This document shows, one piece after another, positions 2,242 to 62,010 of a DNA stretch of 62,349 nt. Origin of the DNA: Bacteroidota bacterium (GTDB taxonomy: Bacteria > Bacteroidota > Bacteroidia > J057 > JAJTIE01). The translations under genes were made by a program, and so were the position numbers. The number at the start of each line of letters is the position of its first letter. The stretch's first letter is position 1. The stretch is taken from positions 1 through 62,349 of the forward strand of contig JAHBTG010000008.1 in the NCBI GenBank assembly GCA_019638695.1, given 5' to 3'. The notes beneath the pieces were generated by a model. That model was not told where the DNA came from and searched no databases. It saw nothing but the letters and a program-made list of their open reading frames with translations.

Positions 2242-5200
2242 GTGATGGGTACTATCCCCAATCGCACCATTATGTGCGGGGAGCGCACCCAGCTGGCCTG
2301 GCAGGTGAATATGAATAATGCCGCCAATCCCGGTGATGCCGCACAGGCGATCAAGGCGCCCTTTGGCTGGTATTATGATAATGGCGGTCCTGATGCCAAC
2401 TATACCGGTGCCGCTACTTTTGACCGCATGGAGCTGGTTTCCCCGCTGGGTGCCGGTACCGTGAGTATCACGTTCTATGACCTGAACCTGGGGCATGCTA
2501 CCCACTCCATTATCCTGTATGACGGGCCCACGACCAGCCACCCGGTATTAGCCACCCTTACCGCTGCCAACCCGCAGCTCAACACCACGTTTACTTCTAC
2601 CGGCGGCCAGATCTTGGTGCGTTTCCGCAACACGGGTAACGGCGCTACCGGCCGTGGCTGGACGGCACGTTTTGAAGGGAACCCGGCGTACCCGTTTACC
2701 TATAGCTGGAGCCCCACCGCCGGGCTGGATGATCCTGCAGCCCCGGAACCCTGGGCGAGCCCGGGCAGCACCACCAGCTATACGCTCACGGTAGGTTATC
2801 CTGCACCCAATGCAGCCTGTAACTTCACTCTGCCCGTTACCGTTACCGTTAACCCGCTGACCTTACCCGCCCTGCCGTCTTACCAGATACTGTGCGGGCA
2901 GCAGGTCATGCTGGGTACCACCGTGGCTAACGCCAATAATGCCAATCTTTCCCAGCAGGAGCTGTTCACCATGCCGGCTACCAGCCAGGTGGGTGCCAAC
3001 GGCCTGCGGCACGTGGCTTCGGGCAGCCTGTTTGACCGCGGGGGTGCCGGTGGCAGCTACTACAACAACGAGGATGTCGGCTATACCATTGCACCCATAG
3101 GGGCCACTACCCTCAGCCTCACCTTCCTCTCCGGTTCCGGAGATGGCAGTACGCCTACCAGCGACCGTATAATCATCTACGACGGTAACAGTACCCTGGC
3201 GCCCGTGCTCCTGGCAGAAACGCCGCTGGATAACCTGCCCATAGGGGTGCCTGTTGTTTCTACCACCGGTATGCTGACGGTGCGAATCATTTCCAATAAC
3301 AATAACCTCCAGGGTGCGGGTTTTGCGGCCAGCTGGACTTCGGATGCCCAGTTTACCTATAGCTGGACCTCTACACCTGCCGGGTTTACCTCTACAGATC
3401 CCTTCCCGGTGGTGGAACCCACCGTCAATACCACCTATACCCAGACAGTAACAGTGGTGGGCACGTCCTGTAGTGTGGCGCGCAACCATGCTGTGACGAT
3501 GGGCGCACATGCCAACGTATATCCTGCTCCGGCCAATATTTATTGCGGAGATGTGGTGAACATTGGTATAGATACCAATATCGTCATGGGTGTGAACTAC
3601 AATAACCCTGCCCATCGCTATTACCTGACCGAGGGATGGCTGTATGACCGCGGCGGGCCCACGCAGGATTATGCCAATAATGTGACGGATGAAGTGGTGT
3701 TACAGCCCCTGGGTGCTACGAGTGTATCCATAGAGTTCCTGTCTGCTGCGGGAGACGGCGCCAATGGCGACTGGATCTGGGTATATAATGGCACCAGCAA
3801 TGCCGCCCCGCTGATCTACTCCGGTTCGCTGGATGCGCTGGTGCTCAATACGGTATTCACCGCCACCTCTGGGGCAATGACCGTCCGCATGGTGGCCAAT
3901 AACAACAACCTGCAGGGTGCGGGCTTCCGGGCGCGCTGGACCAGTACCGGCAGTAACATCACCGGCTACAGCTGGACGGGCACCGCTCCTGCGCTGGCTA
4001 CCCTGAGCAGCACCGCTATCCCCTGGCCATCGGTACAGACCGGTGTGACCAATAGCTATACCCTCAATGTGCTGAACAGCTCCGGTTGTGCCATTGCGCA
4101 GGCCCGCACCCTCACCGTCAATAGCCCCACACTTACGGCCACGCCGGTAACGATCCTGTGCGGCGATACGGTGCAGATCGGCAATCCACCCCAGTTTGTC
4201 AGCGATGTATGGATGAGTAACAATACCGGTCAGCGCCATGCCCCTGAGGGTATGTTCTATGATAATGGCGGCCCCGGCGATAACTACCTCCATGCCAACT
4301 GGACGTATACCATTGCGCCCATTGGAGCCACGGTAACCACACTCGTCTTTACGCAAGCTGCCGGCAATGCCCTGGACCGCATCACGCTGTATGACGGTAC
4401 GGGTACTGCCAACCCCATTATCTGGGGGCCGGGCGCGCTGGGAGACCTGCCGCTGAATACCCTCTTTGTGGCCGGTTCCGGGCGTATTACCATCAACTTT
4501 GATGGCGATAACAGTCCCAATACCCTGGCCGGCAAAGGTCCCGGCTGGGTAGCCAGCTGGACCAGCGATGCGCCAGCCTGGACGGCCAGCTGGACGCCCA
4601 CCACGGGCCTGAGCGATCCCACAGCCTTCCGTCCGTATGCTTATCCCTCTGCTACTACCAATTACTCCGTTACCTACAGCAATGGCACCTGTAACCTCAC
4701 CCATACCGCTGTGGTGACTGTGCAGGCAGATCCCACCCCCACACCCCCGGCCAATTTTGCGGGATCCGATGTGAGTATGTGTGCCAATGATGCCCCCGTA
4801 CAGTTGGGAACGGTACTGCCCAAATATGAGGTGAACATTGCCAACAACGCGGTATACCTCACCAGCAGGGGTATCCTGTATGATGACGGCGGCCCGGCGG
4901 GCAATTATACCAATACTACCAAGAACTGGGTGGCTACTATTAGTCCGGCCAATGCACAGCAGGTGCGCCTCACCTTTACGCAAGGGGTGTTCTTTGATGC
5001 CAATGACCGGGTGGAGATCTATAACAGCGCGACGGAAACTGTGTCCAACCGTTTGCTGAGCAGCAGTGTGGATCATGCCAATACCATTCCGTCCGGCACT
5101 ACGATTGTGTCCAATACCGGTATCATCCGGGTGCGCTTCATTACCAACAATGCCAATGTGGCCGCCGGTTTTGCTGCCGAATGGGAGGTGCTGCAGCCCG

Positions 5201-7074
5201 CCGGTGTCAGCAATGTGCACTGGTCGCCCGAACTGGGGCTGGATAACCCGTATACCGCCCAGCCTATGGCCAATCCCCCGGTGACCACCACCTATACGGT
5301 GACGGTGCGTAATGGCAGTTGCGTGGAGCATACGGACCAGGTGACCGTCACGGTAAACCAGACCAACTTCGAGGATTACCGCAGCCTGGTAGACGGTCTG
5401 TGGAGCGACATCAATACCTGGCAGGTGCTGATGCCCGGCCATCCTAATACCACCCTGCTGCTGGCGCCTGAGAACGAAAGCTTCTGGGTAGATGCCGCCA
5501 CGTACAATACCGGCGGTTGCGGACTGGCCACCATACCCGATGCCCGCAGCAAGAACGTCTTTATCCGCCACACGGTGGATATGGATACCAGCATTGCCAC
5601 GGCTATAGGGGTGGACCAGGTGAGCATTGTCAAATACAATGGCTTTGCCGGTAACCTGCGCTTGCCCGCTACCAAGCGCCTGGCATTGCACAGCAGTGGC
5701 ACTACCAATGCCATCAGCGCCCGTCCGGAAGATATCTATAACCAGAGCAGGTTTGAGATCGCAGGGGAATTCCTGCTGGTGGGCGGCCAGCTCTATAATG
5801 AAGACAGCAGCACCGTGGCCTATACCGGCAACGGGGACCAGCAGATGTGGAACGGCAAGTATGGCCGCCTGGAGATTCACAACACCGGGCAGAAATACGT
5901 ATCCGGCGCCAATACGCGGGTCAATACACAAGTGCAGTTCTTCAGTGGTTATGTCACCACCGGCGCCAATGACATTACGCTGGCCCAGGCTTGCGATGTG
6001 CTGGGAGCCGCCTTTGCCGTGGGTTATTTTGTAACGGACGGACTGGGGTCTGTGGTGAAAGAGCACCTGGGCCCCTCCGGTGTGCCGGTGTTCGATTTCC
6101 CCGTAGGACACAGCACTGCCAGCTATAACCTTGCCCGCATGGAGAACAGCGGTGCTACGGATGACTATGCCGTGCGTGTGACAGGCATCTTTGAGAACGA
6201 CCCCACCTTCCCCACGGATGAGCCGGAACTGCCCAATGCCGTTAACCGCACCTGGCATATCGTGGAGGAGACACCGGGAGGCAGCGATGTGACCTTGCGC
6301 CTGCATTGGGTGACGGCTCATGAAAACCCCGGATTTGACCGCACTATTGCCCGCAAGACGCATTATGACAATGCCATCGGCTGGGAATGGAAGAGCCCCG
6401 AAGCGCCTGCTCAGGGCGCCGGGGACTATACCGATCCCTGGTGGTATGAGACAGCCGGGCTCAACCAGTTCTCCCCCTATTCTGTGGCCAGTATCGTTTA
6501 CCCGCTTAACAACGACCGCCTGCGCCTGTGGGGGCACCTGGAAGGCCGCGACGGCCTGCTGACCTGGGAAGGCGACCGAAGCCCCAGTATACACCATTAT
6601 CAACTGGAGCGTATGCAGCTGGAGCCCACTTTCCATCCCTACCAGGTCATTAACGGGCAACCGGCCTTTGTCAATGGTGAGCCTGTGTACCACTACACAG
6701 ATAAAGACCTTGCCGGGCTTACCTACCGCTACCGCGTGCGGGAGTATGACTGGGACGGCCGGGTGACCCTTAGCAACGAAGTGGAGCTTTACCTGGGCAC
6801 GGATAACCAGGTGCGCCTCACCCTGTATCCCAACCCTGCGGTAACCGACCATGCGGTACTCAAGGTGCGGAGTGCGGAGCCCTTCACCATTGAGTATGAG
6901 ATCTATAATACCCTCGGCCAGGTGGTGGGTCGTGCGCCCAAAGCGGATATGGCTGCGGGCACGCACAAGCTGGAAGTGCCGCTGGCACACCTGGCCGCCG
7001 GTACGTATACCGTGCGTACCACCATCAATGGCCGCCTCTTCAATACCCGCCTCATCCGTATGGTGCGGGACTAG
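1..7074 (+). CDS. Giant T9SS-secreted repetitive surface protein (CUB-like/Ig-like repeats), 5'-truncated
   Basis: The frame is open through the left edge, so this is the C-terminal 2357 residues of a longer protein; the GTG at 136 is only the first in-frame start in view. The visible part has about nine units. Each is a CUB-like domain (opening around CGDSVY, then IFDGYDETAP and a GFE-DF ending) followed by a short Ig/PKD-like domain (YSWTPTTGLSDP ... TTTYTL ... CTDQVTVTV). The first three and a half units are nearly identical and the later five have diverged. From about nt 5370 follows a non-repetitive beta-rich region, then an Fn3-like stretch, then a type A T9SS sorting domain (LYPNP near nt 6825, ending in RLIRMVRD). 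The role is inferred: export through the type IX system and anchoring at the cell surface as an adhesin or matrix protein. Ligand unknown. The domain names are motif-based calls made by eye. Confidence 0.9.
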   Translation, partial: RQTSGTFCNDQITIFDGYDETAPILYGPIQTGAIPLGQRVVSTWGVITVRHFINDNNCNGTGFEADFNSYGTYPTDYSWSPTTGLSDPTSLSPRAAPSVTTTYTLTYGGGCTDQVTVTVLPSDMAGPDRTIRCGDSVYLGLKPMPHGIVPMPLLAATNGTSRQTIRHREGKLRDHANHLNVNAVTPHVGTRYTTIAPVGADSVEIVFVQRATTGTFCNDMITVFDGYDETAPILYGPITTGSIPVGTRVVSTWGVLTVRHFINDNNCNGLGFEADFNSFGDVPDYYSWTPTTGLSDPTAPNPRAAPSTTTTYTLSYGGGCTDQVTVTVLPSGMAGPDVSIGCGDSVYIGAKPMPHGVMSMRVPLVSGVARDTIRHREGILRDHANQLNVNAVGPHVGTRFTSIAPVGADSVAVIFRDMHTSGTFCDDQITIFDGYDETAPILYGPIRTGLIPAGTRVVSTWGVLTVRHFINDNNCNGRGFELDFNSYGTYPTYYSWTPTTGLSDPTILNPKAAPKVTTTYTLNYGDGSGCADQVTVYVNPLDLAGPDRSITCGDSVYIGAWTMPYGIYPQLAPAGSRDTLRARVGVLRDIGNAGNVNIGSHVGTRFTSIAPVGADSVELIFRDAHTSGTFCGDQITVFDGYDETAPVLYGPVTTGSIPPGTRVVSTWGVLTVRHFINDNNCNGRGFEAEFTALGGAGTQYLWSPTTGLDDPTSPTPKAAPATTTVYTLTVDGGCASDVTVTVLPSVGVMGTIPNRTIMCGERTQLAWQVNMNNAANPGDAAQAIKAPFGWYYDNGGPDANYTGAATFDRMELVSPLGAGTVSITFYDLNLGHATHSIILYDGPTTSHPVLATLTAANPQLNTTFTSTGGQILVRFRNTGNGATGRGWTARFEGNPAYPFTYSWSPTAGLDDPAAPEPWASPGSTTSYTLTVGYPAPNAACNFTLPVTVTVNPLTLPALPSYQILCGQQVMLGTTVANANNANLSQQELFTMPATSQVGANGLRHVASGSLFDRGGAGGSYYNNEDVGYTIAPIGATTLSLTFLSGSGDGSTPTSDRIIIYDGNSTLAPVLLAETPLDNLPIGVPVVSTTGMLTVRIISNNNNLQGAGFAASWTSDAQFTYSWTSTPAGFTSTDPFPVVEPTVNTTYTQTVTVVGTSCSVARNHAVTMGAHANVYPAPANIYCGDVVNIGIDTNIVMGVNYNNPAHRYYLTEGWLYDRGGPTQDYANNVTDEVVLQPLGATSVSIEFLSAAGDGANGDWIWVYNGTSNAAPLIYSGSLDALVLNTVFTATSGAMTVRMVANNNNLQGAGFRARWTSTGSNITGYSWTGTAPALATLSSTAIPWPSVQTGVTNSYTLNVLNSSGCAIAQARTLTVNSPTLTATPVTILCGDTVQIGNPPQFVSDVWMSNNTGQRHAPEGMFYDNGGPGDNYLHANWTYTIAPIGATVTTLVFTQAAGNALDRITLYDGTGTANPIIWGPGALGDLPLNTLFVAGSGRITINFDGDNSPNTLAGKGPGWVASWTSDAPAWTASWTPTTGLSDPTAFRPYAYPSATTNYSVTYSNGTCNLTHTAVVTVQADPTPTPPANFAGSDVSMCANDAPVQLGTVLPKYEVNIANNAVYLTSRGILYDDGGPAGNYTNTTKNWVATISPANAQQVRLTFTQGVFFDANDRVEIYNSATETVSNRLLSSSVDHANTIPSGTTIVSNTGIIRVRFITNNANVAAGFAAEWEVLQPAGVSNVHWSPELGLDNPYTAQPMANPPVTTTYTVTVRNGSCVEHTDQVTVTVNQTNFEDYRSLVDGLWSDINTWQVLMPGHPNTTLLLAPENESFWVDAATYNTGGCGLATIPDARSKNVFIRHTVDMDTSIATAIGVDQVSIVKYNGFAGNLRLPATKRLALHSSGTTNAISARPEDIYNQSRFEIAGEFLLVGGQLYNEDSSTVAYTGNGDQQMWNGKYGRLEIHNTGQKYVSGANTRVNTQVQFFSGYVTTGANDITLAQACDVLGAAFAVGYFVTDGLGSVVKEHLGPSGVPVFDFPVGHSTASYNLARMENSGATDDYAVRVTGIFENDPTFPTDEPELPNAVNRTWHIVEETPGGSDVTLRLHWVTAHENPGFDRTIARKTHYDNAIGWEWKSPEAPAQGAGDYTDPWWYETAGLNQFSPYSVASIVYPLNNDRLRLWGHLEGRDGLLTWEGDRSPSIHHYQLERMQLEPTFHPYQVINGQPAFVNGEPVYHYTDKDLAGLTYRYRVREYDWDGRVTLSNEVELYLGTDNQVRLTLYPNPAVTDHAVLKVRSAEPFTIEYEIYNTLGQVVGRAPKADMAAGTHKLEVPLAHLAAGTYTVRTTINGRLFNTRLIRMVRD

Positions 7075-55802: not shown

Positions 55803-56504
55803 TTATTCTACCAGGCTAAGGCGCTCGGTGCCCAGCGTGGTGCCGCCATTGACCAGCCATACCCCCAGCAGTGAGCCTTTGCCCGTCAGATCAGTATAAA
55901 AGGCGGTGCCCTGTGCGCCCGAACCAAAGCAGAGCACCAGCATGCCGCCGGCCATAAATCCGCTGCCGGCCTGGCTGGAGCCTCCGGTGCTCCATATGGC
56001 TTGTATGCCATCTTCGCCGTGGGATTTGAGGGTAAGTGTGCCTTTGTACTGGCTGCCGTCAGCATTGTTCCCGTGCACAGGGTAAGTGCCGGGTACCAGG
56101 GAATAAGAGTGGTCTGCGTTGATCTTATACGGGGTGCCTGCAATGGTCTCCGTAGCTATGGTTCCCTCCTGGGAGTCTGTCCACACACCGTTGCTCTGGT
56201 TCGGCTCCAGGGAATACATGGCCAGGCCAAAATATCCCTCTCCGTAAGTGGTAGAAAATCCGAGTTCTCCCAGCCCCAGGCCTATGCCATGGTAGTCGCC
56301 CGCGGTCGTTTGCCATTGCACATACAGTACATTTTCGTCATCCGGACTAGACTTCGTGGTCAGGGTGCCGGTGTAGGTGCCGCCCTCCGGGGTAGAGCCT
56401 TTTTCTAGCTTGAACTTACGTGCTTGACCAAAGAGTGTGGTATGTGCACATGCCAGCAGGCACACCAGCAGGAGTGTTTTGAGATGAGGACAGGAACGTA
56501 GCAT
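55803..56504 (-). CDS. Secreted protein with internal duplication
   Basis: 233 residues. A signal peptide (about 1-26, ending LFGQ) is followed by two homologous beta-rich halves. The first (about 42-122) opens GTYTGTLTTKSSPD and has LGLGELGFSTTYG; the second (about 150-232) opens SQYKGTLTLKSHGED and has GGMLVLCFGSGAQGTAFYTDL; both end in a GVW-T turn. No sorting tail. Function unknown; beta-barrel or jelly-roll type is likely. Confidence 0.82.
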   Translation of the reverse strand: MLRSCPHLKTLLLVCLLACAHTTLFGQARKFKLEKGSTPEGGTYTGTLTTKSSPDDENVLYVQWQTTAGDYHGIGLGLGELGFSTTYGEGYFGLAMYSLEPNQSNGVWTDSQEGTIATETIAGTPYKINADHSYSLVPGTYPVHGNNADGSQYKGTLTLKSHGEDGIQAIWSTGGSSQAGSGFMAGGMLVLCFGSGAQGTAFYTDLTGKGSLLGVWLVNGGTTLGTERLSLVE

Positions 56505-56639: not shown

Positions 56640-56689
56640 TTTGGATTTGAAATGGAAGCTCTGTTATTTTGAATCATTGTACTAGTACA
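56640..56689 (+). promoter_or_regulatory. trpR-trp operon promoter and TrpR operator
   Basis: TTTG (56640-56643) and TATTTTG (56665-56671; a one-base-short match to TAnnTTTG) form a plausible promoter. TGTACTAGTACA (56678-56689) is a perfect 12-bp palindrome with the CTAG core of known Trp operators, and its last A is the first base of the trpR ATG. TrpR binding here would overlap the transcription start and start codon, giving autoregulation of the whole operon. Confidence 0.72.
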
Positions 56690-56961
56690 TGGATGCAGAG
56701 CCGATTCTCCCTTTTTTTACAGCTGTGCCACCCGGCGACCTGGCCCGTTTTCTGGAAATTACTTTTACGGAAAAAGAACTGGCGCAGGTAGGCGAGCGCT
56801 GGCGCATTTTTGCGGGCCTCCGGCAGGGCCTGAGCCAGCGCGAGGTGGCCGCACAAACTGGCTGCGGCATTGCCACCGTCACCCGTGGCGCGAGGGCCTA
56901 CCGTCTCCATACCGATTTCATTAACCGCATATTAGATACCCTGGAATCTCCACACGCATGA
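56689..56961 (+). CDS. trpR: Trp operon repressor TrpR
   Basis: 90 residues, shorter than Escherichia coli TrpR but near the chlamydial form. ERWRIFAGLRQGLSQREVAAQTG leads into GIATVTRGARAYR, which aligns with the TrpR helix-turn-helix (about 49-68), including the IATxTRG recognition segment. With tryptophan as corepressor it should bind the CTAG palindrome overlapping its own start codon. It overlaps trpE by 4 bp (ATGA), so it heads the operon. Confidence 0.88.
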   Translation: MDAEPILPFFTAVPPGDLARFLEITFTEKELAQVGERWRIFAGLRQGLSQREVAAQTGCGIATVTRGARAYRLHTDFINRILDTLESPHA

Positions 56962-58439
56962 ATGCTACTGCACGCCTGGCGTTGCCTCTCCATGACCCTT
57001 CCCAGCTGTTTCCCCGCCTGGGGATGCCCGCTCCTTGCTTCCTGTTGGAGTCGCTTTCCGTTTCCGAGCGGTTTGGGCGCCTGAGCCTGGCCGGCTGGGA
57101 ACCCAGCCTGGAGCTTATCGGCAAAGACGATACCCTTACCCTGCGTTTGCTGCAAGACCGCGGGAAGCCCTGCCTGGAAGCTGTGGCCCGGCACTACGCC
57201 GCATATATACAGGAACGTACCCCGGATGTGCTGACGCTGCACATCCCCCGGTTGCCCTACGTGGGAGAAGAAGACGGGAGATTGCTGCGCCAGAATATTG
57301 CACAGGTCATCCGGTTTCTCCTGGAGTACTTTCATCAGGATGCCAGGACCTTCATGGGGCTTTACGGTACGCTGGCGTATCGTTTCGTGTATCTGTTCGA
57401 AGATATTCCCTGTACACACCCCACCGGGGTGGCGGATTTTCACCTGTTCCTGTACGATACCTTTGTGTTCTACAACCACCTCACTCAGGAATGCAGCGCC
57501 ATTGCGGTGCGCGAAACTATGGCTGAGGCTGATGCCGCAGTGGCTGCCGTTGCGCAGCAACTGGCCGGGCCTGCTGCTTACCAGCCTGCCGGGCTCAAAC
57601 TGAAGGACCCGGTCTTCACACCTGATGAAGAGCAGTTCAAGGCGCAGGTAGAAGACGCCAAGGAGCTGTTCCGTTTGGGCGAACTGATGGAGATCGTACT
57701 GTGCCGGCGCTTGCAGGCACAACTGGAGGGCCGTTCCTGGGACCTGTACCTGGCCTATCGCCGTCATAACCCCAGTCCCTACCTGTTCTATTTCAACCTA
57801 GGGGGAGATGAGCACCTGATCGGCGCCAGTCCGGAAATGATGCTGCGCTATGAGAACGACAAGGTGACCCTGCGTCCCATCAGCGGCACGGCTTCCCGCG
57901 GCAAGACGCCTATGGAAGACCATGCCAACATGATGGCCCTGCTTAACAGCGTCAAGGAAAAGGCGGAGCTGGATATGCTGATAGACCTGGGGCGTAATGA
58001 CCTGGCCCGCATCTGCGAGCCCGGCGTGGTGATAGAAGACTACCGCTATGTAGAAAAATATGCCCGGGTGATGCACACCGTGGCACAGGTAAGCGGCAGA
58101 TTGCAGGCCGGCAAGACAGGGCTGGATGCCCTCATTGCCAGCCTGAATGCCGGTACGCTGACCGGTGCGCCCAAGGTGGCAGCCATGCGTTTCATAGAGC
58201 AGATGGAGCCCTTTGCCCGGGGATATTATGGGGGTACCGCCGGTTACTTTGCCTTGAGCGGAGAAGTGGATACCGGCATTATCATCCGCACGGCACATAT
58301 TCGTGGGCAGCAACTGGAATATTGCAGCGGGGCCACCTTGCTTATAGACTGCGACCCTGCCTTTGAATTACGCGAAACCCAGATCAAGGCTCAGGCTTTT
58401 ATGGACCTGTTTCAAGCCCCCGCTGCCATGGATGCCTAG
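56958..58439 (+). CDS. trpE: Anthranilate synthase component I
   Basis: 493 residues. LLES at 29-32 is part of the tryptophan feedback site. The chorismate-binding core has GASPEMMLRYENDKVTLRPI, SGTASRGK, DLGRNDLARI, GTLTGAPKVAAM and GYYGGTAGYFALSGEVDTGIIIR, all typical. It makes anthranilate from chorismate with ammonia from TrpG. The following trpGD gene begins 41 bp later. Confidence 0.96.
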   Translation: MNATARLALPLHDPSQLFPRLGMPAPCFLLESLSVSERFGRLSLAGWEPSLELIGKDDTLTLRLLQDRGKPCLEAVARHYAAYIQERTPDVLTLHIPRLPYVGEEDGRLLRQNIAQVIRFLLEYFHQDARTFMGLYGTLAYRFVYLFEDIPCTHPTGVADFHLFLYDTFVFYNHLTQECSAIAVRETMAEADAAVAAVAQQLAGPAAYQPAGLKLKDPVFTPDEEQFKAQVEDAKELFRLGELMEIVLCRRLQAQLEGRSWDLYLAYRRHNPSPYLFYFNLGGDEHLIGASPEMMLRYENDKVTLRPISGTASRGKTPMEDHANMMALLNSVKEKAELDMLIDLGRNDLARICEPGVVIEDYRYVEKYARVMHTVAQVSGRLQAGKTGLDALIASLNAGTLTGAPKVAAMRFIEQMEPFARGYYGGTAGYFALSGEVDTGIIIRTAHIRGQQLEYCSGATLLIDCDPAFELRETQIKAQAFMDLFQAPAAMDA

Positions 58440-58480
58440 CGTTTCAAAAGCAGCAGGATATACCAGAACTCATTCCCGTC

Positions 58481-60079
58481 ATGTATAAGAACGTCCTGAT
58501 CATAGATAATTTCGATAGCTTCACCTTCAACCTGGTGGATTATTTCCGGCAGCTGGGGTGCCAGGTGCAGATCTATCGCAACACGGTCAGTCCCGAAGAA
58601 CTGCGGGCTCTGGAATTTGACCTGATGGTGCTGAGCCCCGGTCCCAGCGTGCCCCGCAATGCAGGCAACCTCATGCAGATCATTGAAGCCTTCTACCAGA
58701 CCAGGCCCATTTTTGGCGTGTGCCTGGGCCTGCAGGCACTGGTGGAGTTCTTTGGCGGCAGCCTGCAGTTCCTGGAGCCGGTGCATGGCAAGCCGGACCG
58801 TATCATCCATGATGGCAAGAGCATCTACCAGGGGTTGCCGGTGGAGATCGAGATGGGCAGGTATCACAGCCTGGCTGCAGATGTGGTGCCCAGCGTATTT
58901 GAAGTAACGGCCCGCAATGCAGACGGCGTGGTCATGAGCCTGCGCCACCGCCAGCTGCCTATAGAAGCCGTACAATATCACCCGGAGAGCGTGCTCAGTA
59001 TGCGCGAAGATGCCGGCTTCCGCCTTATCCGGAATGTGGTGCAGGGCAACCTTTCTACCGGGAATGTGGCCTATTTCCGCCTTATGCGCCAGATGATGGA
59101 GGAAGAAACCCTGGGGGCAGAAGATATCCGCCTGTTTGTAGAACTGATCCATGAAGGGCAACTGACCGAAGACCAGAAGCTGGTACTGTTGGTGAGTATC
59201 AGCAGCCGGCTGAAGAACCCCGTAGCCCTCAGCAGGCTGGTGCAGGCGCTCCTGGCCTACTCTTCCTGGGAATCCCGGGGCTTTGCAGAAGATGCCATAG
59301 ATATCTGCGGGACGGGGGGGAGCAATCTCCCGCGCCTGAATACCAGTACCCTGGCCGGGCTTACTCTGGCAGCATTGGGCGTACCCATCGTCAAGCACGG
59401 CAACCGTGCTGCCAGCGGCCGGTTCGGCAGCTTTGATCTGCTGGAAGCCCTGGGAGTAGACCTCCATGCCGGTGCCGCGCAAGTGGCTTCTGCCGCGCAG
59501 CAAACGGGGCTGGGGTTCATCTTTGCGCCCAAGGCTCACCCCGTGGTAGGCGCTTTTGGCAGCAGCCGTGCGCGCCTGGGCATTCCCACCCTCTTTAATA
59601 CGCTGGGCCCTTTGCTCAATCCTCTGCAACCCAAACGGCAGTTCATTGGCACTGCGTTTGCCCCTTATATGGACCTTATTGCAGATACTGCAGCCGTATT
59701 GGGCCGTACCCATGTAGTCGTTGCCCGGGGCGCGGACGGCCTGGATGAGATTACCCTCACGGGTCCCACCCGCCTGGTATCTATAAGAGGCACCCGCCGC
59801 GAGCATCTGGAGCTGGAGCCTGCAGATTTTGGCCTGCAGCCGCTGCCTTTTGAGGCCCTCAAATGCGAAAATCCTGCCCAAAGTCTTGAACTGGCCAACC
59901 AGATCCTGGACGGGCAACCCCAGACTTTGCATTACCAGCTGGTGGCGGTCAACGCAGCGTATATCTACAGTACCTTCTATCAGGAAATACCGCTTAGGGA
60001 GGCTTATATGCTTATGGAAGATACCATTCGCAGCGGCCGCCTGCGCCAGGTGCTCAATGCCTATATCAAAGTCCTATGA
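58481..60079 (+). CDS. trpGD: Fused anthranilate synthase glutamine amidotransferase / anthranilate phosphoribosyltransferase
   Basis: 532 residues. TrpG (1-190): IDNFDSFTFNL, the oxyanion/catalytic block with Cys81 (FGVCLGLQAL; the His usual two residues after Gly is Leu) and His167-Glu169 (YHPES). TrpD (about 200-532): DICGTGGSN at 274-282 and KHGNRA at 305-310, the PRPP and anthranilate sites. It feeds ammonia to TrpE and then adds phosphoribose to anthranilate. Fused TrpGD is known from enterobacteria; overlap with trpCF is 4 bp. Confidence 0.95.
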   Translation: MYKNVLIIDNFDSFTFNLVDYFRQLGCQVQIYRNTVSPEELRALEFDLMVLSPGPSVPRNAGNLMQIIEAFYQTRPIFGVCLGLQALVEFFGGSLQFLEPVHGKPDRIIHDGKSIYQGLPVEIEMGRYHSLAADVVPSVFEVTARNADGVVMSLRHRQLPIEAVQYHPESVLSMREDAGFRLIRNVVQGNLSTGNVAYFRLMRQMMEEETLGAEDIRLFVELIHEGQLTEDQKLVLLVSISSRLKNPVALSRLVQALLAYSSWESRGFAEDAIDICGTGGSNLPRLNTSTLAGLTLAALGVPIVKHGNRAASGRFGSFDLLEALGVDLHAGAAQVASAAQQTGLGFIFAPKAHPVVGAFGSSRARLGIPTLFNTLGPLLNPLQPKRQFIGTAFAPYMDLIADTAAVLGRTHVVVARGADGLDEITLTGPTRLVSIRGTRREHLELEPADFGLQPLPFEALKCENPAQSLELANQILDGQPQTLHYQLVAVNAAYIYSTFYQEIPLREAYMLMEDTIRSGRLRQVLNAYIKVL

Positions 60080-61455
60080 GCCAGGCATCCCCCCCTACCG
60101 TGCTTCAGCAGATCGCTGTGCGCAAGGCGCAGGAAGTCGCCGGGTTTTACCAGCAATATCCGCTCGAGGAGCTTCAGAAAACCGTGCAACCCGGTACCCG
60201 TTTGTTTGCCGGGCTGGTGGCAGACAAGCGTGCCAGGGGAGCGCATTTTTTCATCACTGAGTTCAAGCGCAGAAGCCCCAGTAACCCGGCTATCGGGCTG
60301 GAGGCGGACCCTGCGCAAATGGCGAAACAATACATTTCCCACGGCGCAACGGCCATCTCTGTGCTCACGGACGGCGCTTCCTTTGGAGGGAGCTTTGCCG
60401 ATATGCAGGCCGTGGTGGCACTGGCTGCCCCGGCAGGCGTGGCGGTGCTCAACAAGGACTTTGTCATAGACCCTATACAGGTATACCTGGCCCGCAAGTT
60501 CGGGGCGGATATTATTCTGCTGATCGCCGCTATCCTCACAGATGCCCAGCTGATACAACTGCACCAACTGGCGCTGGAACTGGGCATGGATACGATTGCA
60601 GAGGTGCATACGGCCGCAGAGCGGGACCGGGTGGTGCGCCTGGGGCTACCCGTCATCGGGGTGAATAACCGGGATCTGCATAGCTTCCGCATCCACCTGA
60701 ATACCGTAAATGTGCTGGCACAGGGCATCCCGGCAGACCGCACGGTGATCGCAGAGTCCGGCATGACCGGGGCGCTGGATTTTGCCATCTGCGGGGCGCA
60801 TGCTCATGGGTTCCTGGTAGGCACTTCACTGATGCAGGGCAAGGCCATTAGCCCCGGTGAACCCTTAACGAACCTGACTAAAAAGCGGTATTTCTTTAAG
60901 GCCTGTGGACTGCGCCGGCTTGTAGAATTGGAGTATCCCGGGCCTGACCTGGTGGGTATTAATCTGAGCGACCGCAGCCGCCGCAAGGCAGATCTGACCG
61001 CTTTTCCCGGCTTTCCTGAGCATGCTGTAGCTCTTTTTTATGAGAATGAAGACCGGGCAGAGGAGGTGTTATCCGGTATTTCCTTTTCCTGGATACAGCT
61101 CTATAAGCCCCTGGATCCAATGCTTCCGTTGGCCCGGAAACCCCGGATATTGCGTGCATTCACTTCGCTGAACACTTATGGGACCTCAGCGTTTGGGGCA
61201 GATGTTCTGCAGTCAGATCTACTTATATTAGACGGTAACCAGCCCGGTTCCGGGCAAAAAGCAACTTATACGATTCCGCCGGATTTTCCCGTTCCTTTTT
61301 TATTGGCGGGGGGTATTCATGCTGGAAATGTGGAGATCTGCACCACGCATCCTATGTGTATAGGTGTGGATGTGGCCTCTGGTATAGAAGAAAATAACCA
61401 GGTCTCTGCCCGGCAGATTCTGAAGATTAGAGAGAATCTGGATAAATTATCATAG
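60076..61455 (+). CDS. trpCF: Fused indole-3-glycerol-phosphate synthase / phosphoribosylanthranilate isomerase
   Basis: 459 residues. TrpC (about 1-255): EFKRRSPS at 62-69 and VLNKDFVIDPIQVYLARKFGAD. TrpF (about 270-459): the catalytic Cys277 (FFKACGLRR) and Asp386 (LILDGNQPGSGQ), LLAGGIHAGNV and GVDVASGIE. The QLHG segment of TrpF is QLYK here, a divergence. It is the last trp gene in view: no trpB or trpA follows. Confidence 0.93.
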   Translation: MSQASPPTVLQQIAVRKAQEVAGFYQQYPLEELQKTVQPGTRLFAGLVADKRARGAHFFITEFKRRSPSNPAIGLEADPAQMAKQYISHGATAISVLTDGASFGGSFADMQAVVALAAPAGVAVLNKDFVIDPIQVYLARKFGADIILLIAAILTDAQLIQLHQLALELGMDTIAEVHTAAERDRVVRLGLPVIGVNNRDLHSFRIHLNTVNVLAQGIPADRTVIAESGMTGALDFAICGAHAHGFLVGTSLMQGKAISPGEPLTNLTKKRYFFKACGLRRLVELEYPGPDLVGINLSDRSRRKADLTAFPGFPEHAVALFYENEDRAEEVLSGISFSWIQLYKPLDPMLPLARKPRILRAFTSLNTYGTSAFGADVLQSDLLILDGNQPGSGQKATYTIPPDFPVPFLLAGGIHAGNVEICTTHPMCIGVDVASGIEENNQVSARQILKIRENLDKLS

Positions 61456-61548: not shown

Positions 61549-61860
61549 ATGAAAATTAAAGTTAAAAAGGTCAGTTATTCAGAGGTAGAGGTCAAGCATG
61601 CATTTATGGTGATCATTGAGAGCCAGCTGAAAGAACTGGTGACCTCAGGTCTGGTTCCCGATAAAACACCCTTCCGCGTATTTCAGTCTGGGAGTGAAGC
61701 TGTGGCCGACATCCGCAGCCGGAACCAGAGAGTGAAAAAACTGCTCATCCTGGAACTGGAAGTGAGCAAACTGGACAGCAACAAAATCGTAGCCGGTGAA
61801 GTGCTGGAGTACGAAGGAACCATTACCCACCACATGGTCCGCCGTGTAACGGAAGAATAG
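61549..61860 (+). CDS. Small cytosolic protein of unknown function
   Basis: 103 residues, basic N-terminus (MKIKVKKVSYSEVEVKH), with no signal peptide or recognised domain. The C-terminal half has LLILELEVSKLDSNKIVAGEVLEYEGTI, a beta-strand pattern. It lies between its own promoter and a strong terminator, so it appears monocistronic. Not related by sequence to tryptophan synthesis genes. Possible roles are open. Confidence 0.75.
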   Translation: MKIKVKKVSYSEVEVKHAFMVIIESQLKELVTSGLVPDKTPFRVFQSGSEAVADIRSRNQRVKKLLILELEVSKLDSNKIVAGEVLEYEGTITHHMVRRVTEE

Positions 61861-61885: not shown

Positions 61886-61926
61886 AAACTGCGGAGAACT
61901 TCGGTTTCCTCCGCAGTTTTTTTATT
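61886..61926 (+). terminator. Rho-independent terminator with UUCG tetraloop
   Basis: AAACTGCGGA (61886-61895) pairs with TCCGCAGTTT (61910-61919); inside, AAC-TTCG-GTT forms a cUUCGg tetraloop. A T-rich tract follows. Strong termination of the 61549 gene. Confidence 0.93.
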
Positions 61927-62010
61927 TTTGGAAACTGGGCACAGCCCTGTTACCGTTATTACATAAACAGTACAGGAGTTCTGAACCAAGTGTATAGTAA
62001 ATTCTGGAAC

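Follow-up and report, generated by a model that had tools for sequence, protein, structure and literature searches.

Does the short gene that heads a tryptophan biosynthesis operon in this Bacteroidota genome encode a tryptophan-responsive repressor, and is the palindrome that runs onto its start codon the operator of that repressor? TrpR regulons are known from eight gammaproteobacterial lineages and were reported to be absent in the other proteobacterial classes studied (PMC5343134), a range already wider than the enterobacteria and Chlamydiae outside which an earlier note on this DNA had called TrpR rare. A survey of trp genes from the Sargasso Sea, published in 2008, detected no trpR homologue at a significant level (PMC2395257), work on Bacteroides thetaiotaomicron from 2025 referred to a repressor (TrpR) homologue as yet-to-be-identified (PMC11898669), and no description of a TrpR regulon in Bacteroidota was found in open-licence papers. 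From the sequence we propose, with a probability of roughly 0.87, that the gene and the palindrome belong to a TrpR regulon that responds to tryptophan and comprises two operons, one in the window (the whole stretch of 62,349 nucleotides analysed here) and one elsewhere in the genome. The placement of the host among Bacteroidota is supported by the 78 type-IX-secretion tail domains of the genome, two of them on the window's contig, together with the TAnnTTTG-like promoters described below.

The trp operon and its first gene

The operon has the order trpR-trpE-trpGD-trpCF, with trpR as the first gene and with ATGA overlaps at trpR/trpE and at trpGD/trpCF:

56689-56961, forward strand: trpR, predicted TrpR-type repressor of 90 aa (Pfam, NCBIfam, PDB sequence match, model)
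56958-58439, forward strand: trpE, anthranilate synthase component I (open reading frame, family matches)
58481-60079, forward strand: trpGD, fusion of glutamine amidotransferase and anthranilate phosphoribosyltransferase (open reading frame, family matches)
60076-61455, forward strand: trpCF, fusion of IGPS and PRAI (open reading frame, family matches)

The start codon of trpR is supported by the TrpR of a sister genus, whose N-terminus aligns with the window protein from M1. Downstream of trpCF lies a 103-aa open reading frame without a family match (61549-61860, forward strand), followed by a G+C-rich inverted repeat with a T run, which resembles a terminator (about 61888-61930, forward strand). 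An exported protein, whose match to the LIC10280 family is below the cut-off, is encoded divergently from trpR (55803-56504, reverse strand).

The trpR product passes the cut-off of Pfam PF01371 (Trp_repressor) with 50.1 bits against 27. With TIGR01321 (TrpR) it reaches 39.7 bits, below the equivalog cut-off of 67.25, which is a curated score threshold and not a functional feature; it is missed as well by TrpRs from Marinobacterium (58.3) and Magasanikbacteria (65.2), both of them accompanied by clear operator-like sites. The score with TIGR02531 (YerC/YecD) is 17.8 bits, below the cut-off of 42.2. The best solved relatives by sequence are those of E. coli TrpR (PDB TrpR, E 3e-5), and the AlphaFold model (pLDDT 90) retrieves TrpR and HisR structures from the PDB in Foldseek, with 1trr superimposed at 1.1 A over 56 columns, at E-values that are weak (0.02-0.05), the protein being so short. 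Residues of the Trp pocket are kept (E. coli T44, R54, R84 and G85 correspond to T27, R37, R66 and G67), as are those that contact DNA (E. coli R69, I79, A80, T81, T83 and R84 correspond to R51, I61, A62, T63, T65 and R66), and T27, R37, R51, T65, R66 and G67 are invariant across 15 diverse homologues.

It could be argued that the protein is a member of the TrpR family that responds to another ligand (histidine, as in HisR, or another aromatic compound) and that its trp neighbours are incidental. PF01371 spans both TrpR and HisR, the HisR-type structures 3g1c and 3kor rank slightly above TrpR in Foldseek, and the position of E. coli S88, which contacts Trp (PMC8081663), is occupied by Ala. We regard this explanation as improbable, as the score with TIGR01321 exceeds that with the YerC family by 22 bits and equivalents of the TrpR-specific R69 and G85 are present. 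HisR proteins (YerC/YecD) have the PF01371 fold in common with the window protein but differ from it in the ligand residues, in the DNA motif and in a Tyr that replaces R69 (PMC9413887); the same Tyr is seen in the YerC-type proteins of Bacteroidota. Judging from sequence and model, the window protein is of the TrpR type rather than the HisR/YerC type, and the homology to TrpR claimed in the earlier note is supported by the family scores, the fold and the kept contact residues.

A palindrome on the start codon and its counterparts

According to the earlier note, CTAG-cored palindromes are TrpR operators in enterobacteria and Chlamydiae. The palindrome that it places at the trpR start, with its end falling on the A of the ATG, is indeed there, perfect and in that register, and it is accompanied by the following elements:

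56640-56643, forward strand: TTTG, possible -33 element 20 bp before the -7 box (weak, suggested by the consensus)
56664-56671, forward strand: TTATTTTG, -7-like box with one mismatch to the Bacteroidota TAnnTTTG
56671-56675 and 56692-56696, forward strand: GAATC and GATGC, outer half-sites of the operator, with 8-bp spacing
56678-56689, forward strand: TGTACTAGTACA, perfect palindrome, predicted TrpR operator (from its sequence and its recurrence at trp and trpR loci)

The last A of TGTACTAGTACA, at 56689, is the A of the ATG (context TTATTTTGAATCATTGTACTAGTACATGGATGC), and a pattern search finds this single exact match in the window. In the predicted operator a single CTAG dyad is strong, and the outer half-sites on either side of it are degenerate; if these are counted, 6 of the 8 positions of GNACT-N8-AGTNC, the TrpR half-site rule (PMC9413887), are matched in either dimer register. 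The TAnnTTTG consensus has been mapped in flavobacteria at -12 to -5 (PMC9723704), and therefore transcription is predicted to start near 56676, with a leader of ~13 nt. With the promoter placed in this way, the operator would span roughly positions +3 to +14 of the transcript so predicted.

We infer from the sequence that the protein binds this site, that tryptophan is the corepressor and that the block is steric. When tryptophan is abundant, a TrpR dimer with L-Trp would occupy the CTAG-centred site and, lying on about +3 to +14 and on the A of the ATG, would block RNA polymerase at the start. The whole of trpR-trpE-trpGD-trpCF would be repressed, trpR itself included (autorepression), and the same TrpR would repress the DAHP synthase-trpB-trpA operon.

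The latter operon, in which DAHP synthase is the first gene and trpA the last, is located on another contig, with trpB and trpA behind the DAHP synthase gene. TGTACTAGTCTATTG is found upstream of it; this site is incomplete and lies ~37 bp upstream of the operon's TATCTTTG box. A search of the genome with PF02153 gave no match. The genome G001, from a sister genus of the same family, has the identical gene order trpR-trpE-trpGD-trpCF, with identities to the window proteins of 46-49% (TrpR), 71% (TrpE), 72% (TrpGD) and 54% (TrpCF). There, GTACTAGTACACTAGTGC begins 50 bp ahead of the trpR start codon, and CACTAGTACATTAGTAC directly follows TATCTTTG at the DAHP synthase-trpB-trpA operon; the G001 sites GTACTAGTACACTAGTGC and GCACTAGTACATTAGTAC are perfect instances of GNACT-N8-AGTNC. 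Cognate CTAG/GNACT sites are present at both trp operons of both genera, perfect in G001 but partial in the window genome, where the incompleteness speaks against the proposed regulon. Their presence further argues against another ligand: trp and DAHP synthase operons, not his genes, make up the neighbourhood and the two recurrent targets, and in its motif the site follows TrpR rather than HisR, which has cacTTTAnnnnnnTAAAgtg (PMC9413887).

Distinct places that carry the octamer GTACTAGT number 15 in the window genome and 16 in G001, and in each genome one of these precedes trpR-trpE and another DAHP synthase-trpB-trpA. The chance of finding it in both 150-bp upstream regions is ~1.2e-6 for the window genome and ~1.6e-6 for G001. 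Its other places in the window genome were rejected as regulon members, nearly all of them being within open reading frames. Two further G001 sites lie at TAnnTTTG-like boxes, one at the start of a gene for a Met/Cys-metabolism PLP-enzyme-like protein (L121, site 971) and one upstream of an exported protein (L123, site 1501); they are without support from the other genus and may be either extra regulon members or chance occurrences.

Two other explanations of the palindrome can be weighed against these data. It might act mainly on RNA or translation, by masking the start codon, and not as a protein-binding site, which would suit its overlap with the ATG and the short predicted leader. A 12-nt self-palindrome without a loop gives no useful hairpin, the trp region yielded no Rfam leader, attenuator or riboswitch, and in G001 the site lies 50 bp away from the ATG and recurs at the DAHP synthase promoter, so we find this mode of action scarcely credible. 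The palindrome might also be a chance motif devoid of any regulatory role: the window contains 23 perfect palindromes of 12 bp, so that perfection alone is unremarkable. This is equally hard to credit, given that CTAG is depleted about ninefold in the window (26 seen against 233 expected from base composition), that the site is carried by both trp operons in two genera (a coincidence of the order of 1e-6 per genome) and that other phyla have it at trpR starts too. The decamer GTACTAGTAC has only two copies in the 2.94-Mb genome, the second of them on contig C114, within a coding region that resembles rimM.

The reading as a TrpR operator, favoured here, agrees with the suggestion of the earlier note that the trp operon is under TrpR control, with a site now found ahead of each trp operon, in the window genome as well as in the sister genus. 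That note held that absence of the palindrome upstream of orthologues would count against its proposal, and advised a search of Bacteroidota for TrpR beside trpE with the palindrome; both TrpR and the octamer were found in G001, and the proposal withstood the comparison. The operon is as the note described it, but the second, DAHP synthase-trpBA, operon had been missed.

Distribution and origin of the TrpR-operator pair

Among 22 genomes of the order, searches with PF01371 revealed a clear TrpR only in the window's own family, in both of its members, and among 395 genomes of the class in the same two; among 395 genomes of the phylum they returned the window's genome, YerC-type proteins and one divergent TrpR-like protein. 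The class and phylum samples overlap, and over both of them this combination of TrpR with the operator turned up in the window's family only. Most of the other strong PF01371 matches of the phylum are of the HisR (YerC/YecD) type, among them L007-L012 and L145, which were considered as TrpR and rejected. In a family from another class of the phylum, 2 of 79 genomes possess a TrpR-like gene (helix ISLCKITRG) directly upstream of trpB, an arrangement as in Chlamydia (L161 in G366, about 4690-6178; L162 in G439, 4440-6027); the CTAG site was not found at the start of the gene in these two genomes.

Beyond the phylum, 84,980 species were scanned with a DNA pattern for GxGIAT[VI]TRGA, which is biased to TrpRs with Ala after TRG. 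Many matches (in Halomonas/Vreelandella and others) proved on translation to be chance frames and were excluded, and no named Bacteroidota were among the matches from these species, the near relatives of the window possibly lying outside the scan. GTACTAGTAC or a one-base variant abuts the trpR ATG in Marinobacterium (six species), Marinobacter, Marinagarivorans, Cellvibrio, an Osedax symbiont, a Pseudomonadales MAG and an alphaproteobacterial MAG, and most of the gammaproteobacterial loci have trpE- and trpG-like genes downstream of trpR. In Patescibacteria (Magasanikbacteria and Peregrinibacteria; L086, 4354-5954; L097, 7307-7585; L044, around 3704-4000) a GTACTAGTAC-like site begins 13-45 nt before the trpR ATG, with trpB downstream of trpR in Peregrinibacteria, and in Bdellovibrionales ATACTAGTAT is found near the trpR start. 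TrpR with operator-like sites therefore reaches past enterobacteria and Chlamydiae also into Patescibacteria, Bdellovibrionota and an alphaproteobacterial MAG. As the same register recurs at proteobacterial trpR starts, placing the operator on the start codon is not peculiar to this genome but an arrangement met repeatedly: the layout pointed out in the earlier note is real, but it is common to marine gammaproteobacteria as well.

It is tempting to consider a TrpR site that abuts or overlaps the trpR ATG, often with a trp gene next to it, as an autoregulated cassette that moved among, or was kept by, at least four phyla (Pseudomonadota, Bacteroidota, Patescibacteria and Bdellovibrionota) and that in Bacteroidota was adapted to the TAnnTTTG promoters of this phylum and governs a second operon too; we would give this idea slightly less than an even chance. 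A tree of the 90-aa TrpR groups the window protein with that of G001 (97/95), most of the deeper forks being open; with these forks and with very long branches (E. coli TrpR is at 6.4 changes per site) it is unusable for deciding on transfer. Transfer or patchy retention of TrpR is likely. The patchy distribution is most simply explained by transfer into the ancestor of the family and later adjustment to the promoters of Bacteroidota; retention with many losses is a possible alternative.

Relation to known TrpR systems

The proposed regulon resembles those of E. coli and the seven other gammaproteobacterial lineages in its TrpR-type repressor, in predicted autoregulation, in a core regulon that includes trpE, in having DAHP synthase as a target, and in GNACT-N8-AGTNC sites with CTAG cores, but it differs from them in belonging to Bacteroidota, in having trpR at the head of the trp operon, in its Bacteroidota-type promoters and in a window site whose only strong dyad lies on the ATG (PMC5343134). 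With Marinobacterium, Marinobacter, Marinagarivorans and the Osedax symbiont it shares the position of GTACTAGTAC directly before the start codon of trpR, and genes resembling trpE and trpG downstream of it; compared with these marine trpR-trpE-trpG loci, TrpR is ~42-52% identical over the matched part and TrpE <36%, and their promoters are sigma-70-like, unlike that of the window. As in trpRBA of Chlamydia trachomatis, trpR heads the trp operon and would repress it. However, the chlamydial operon comprises trpBA only, serves salvage and is additionally controlled by iron through YtgR, whereas the window genome has the full pathway in two operons (PMC7755916).

The control of tryptophan synthesis in Bacteroidota is poorly known, and a concrete and testable TrpR regulon can now be offered for it. 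The pairing of TrpR with its operator extends well past gammaproteobacteria and Chlamydiae, and the family studied here may provide a clean case in which to study how regulator and site travel together and adapt to the grammar of other promoters.
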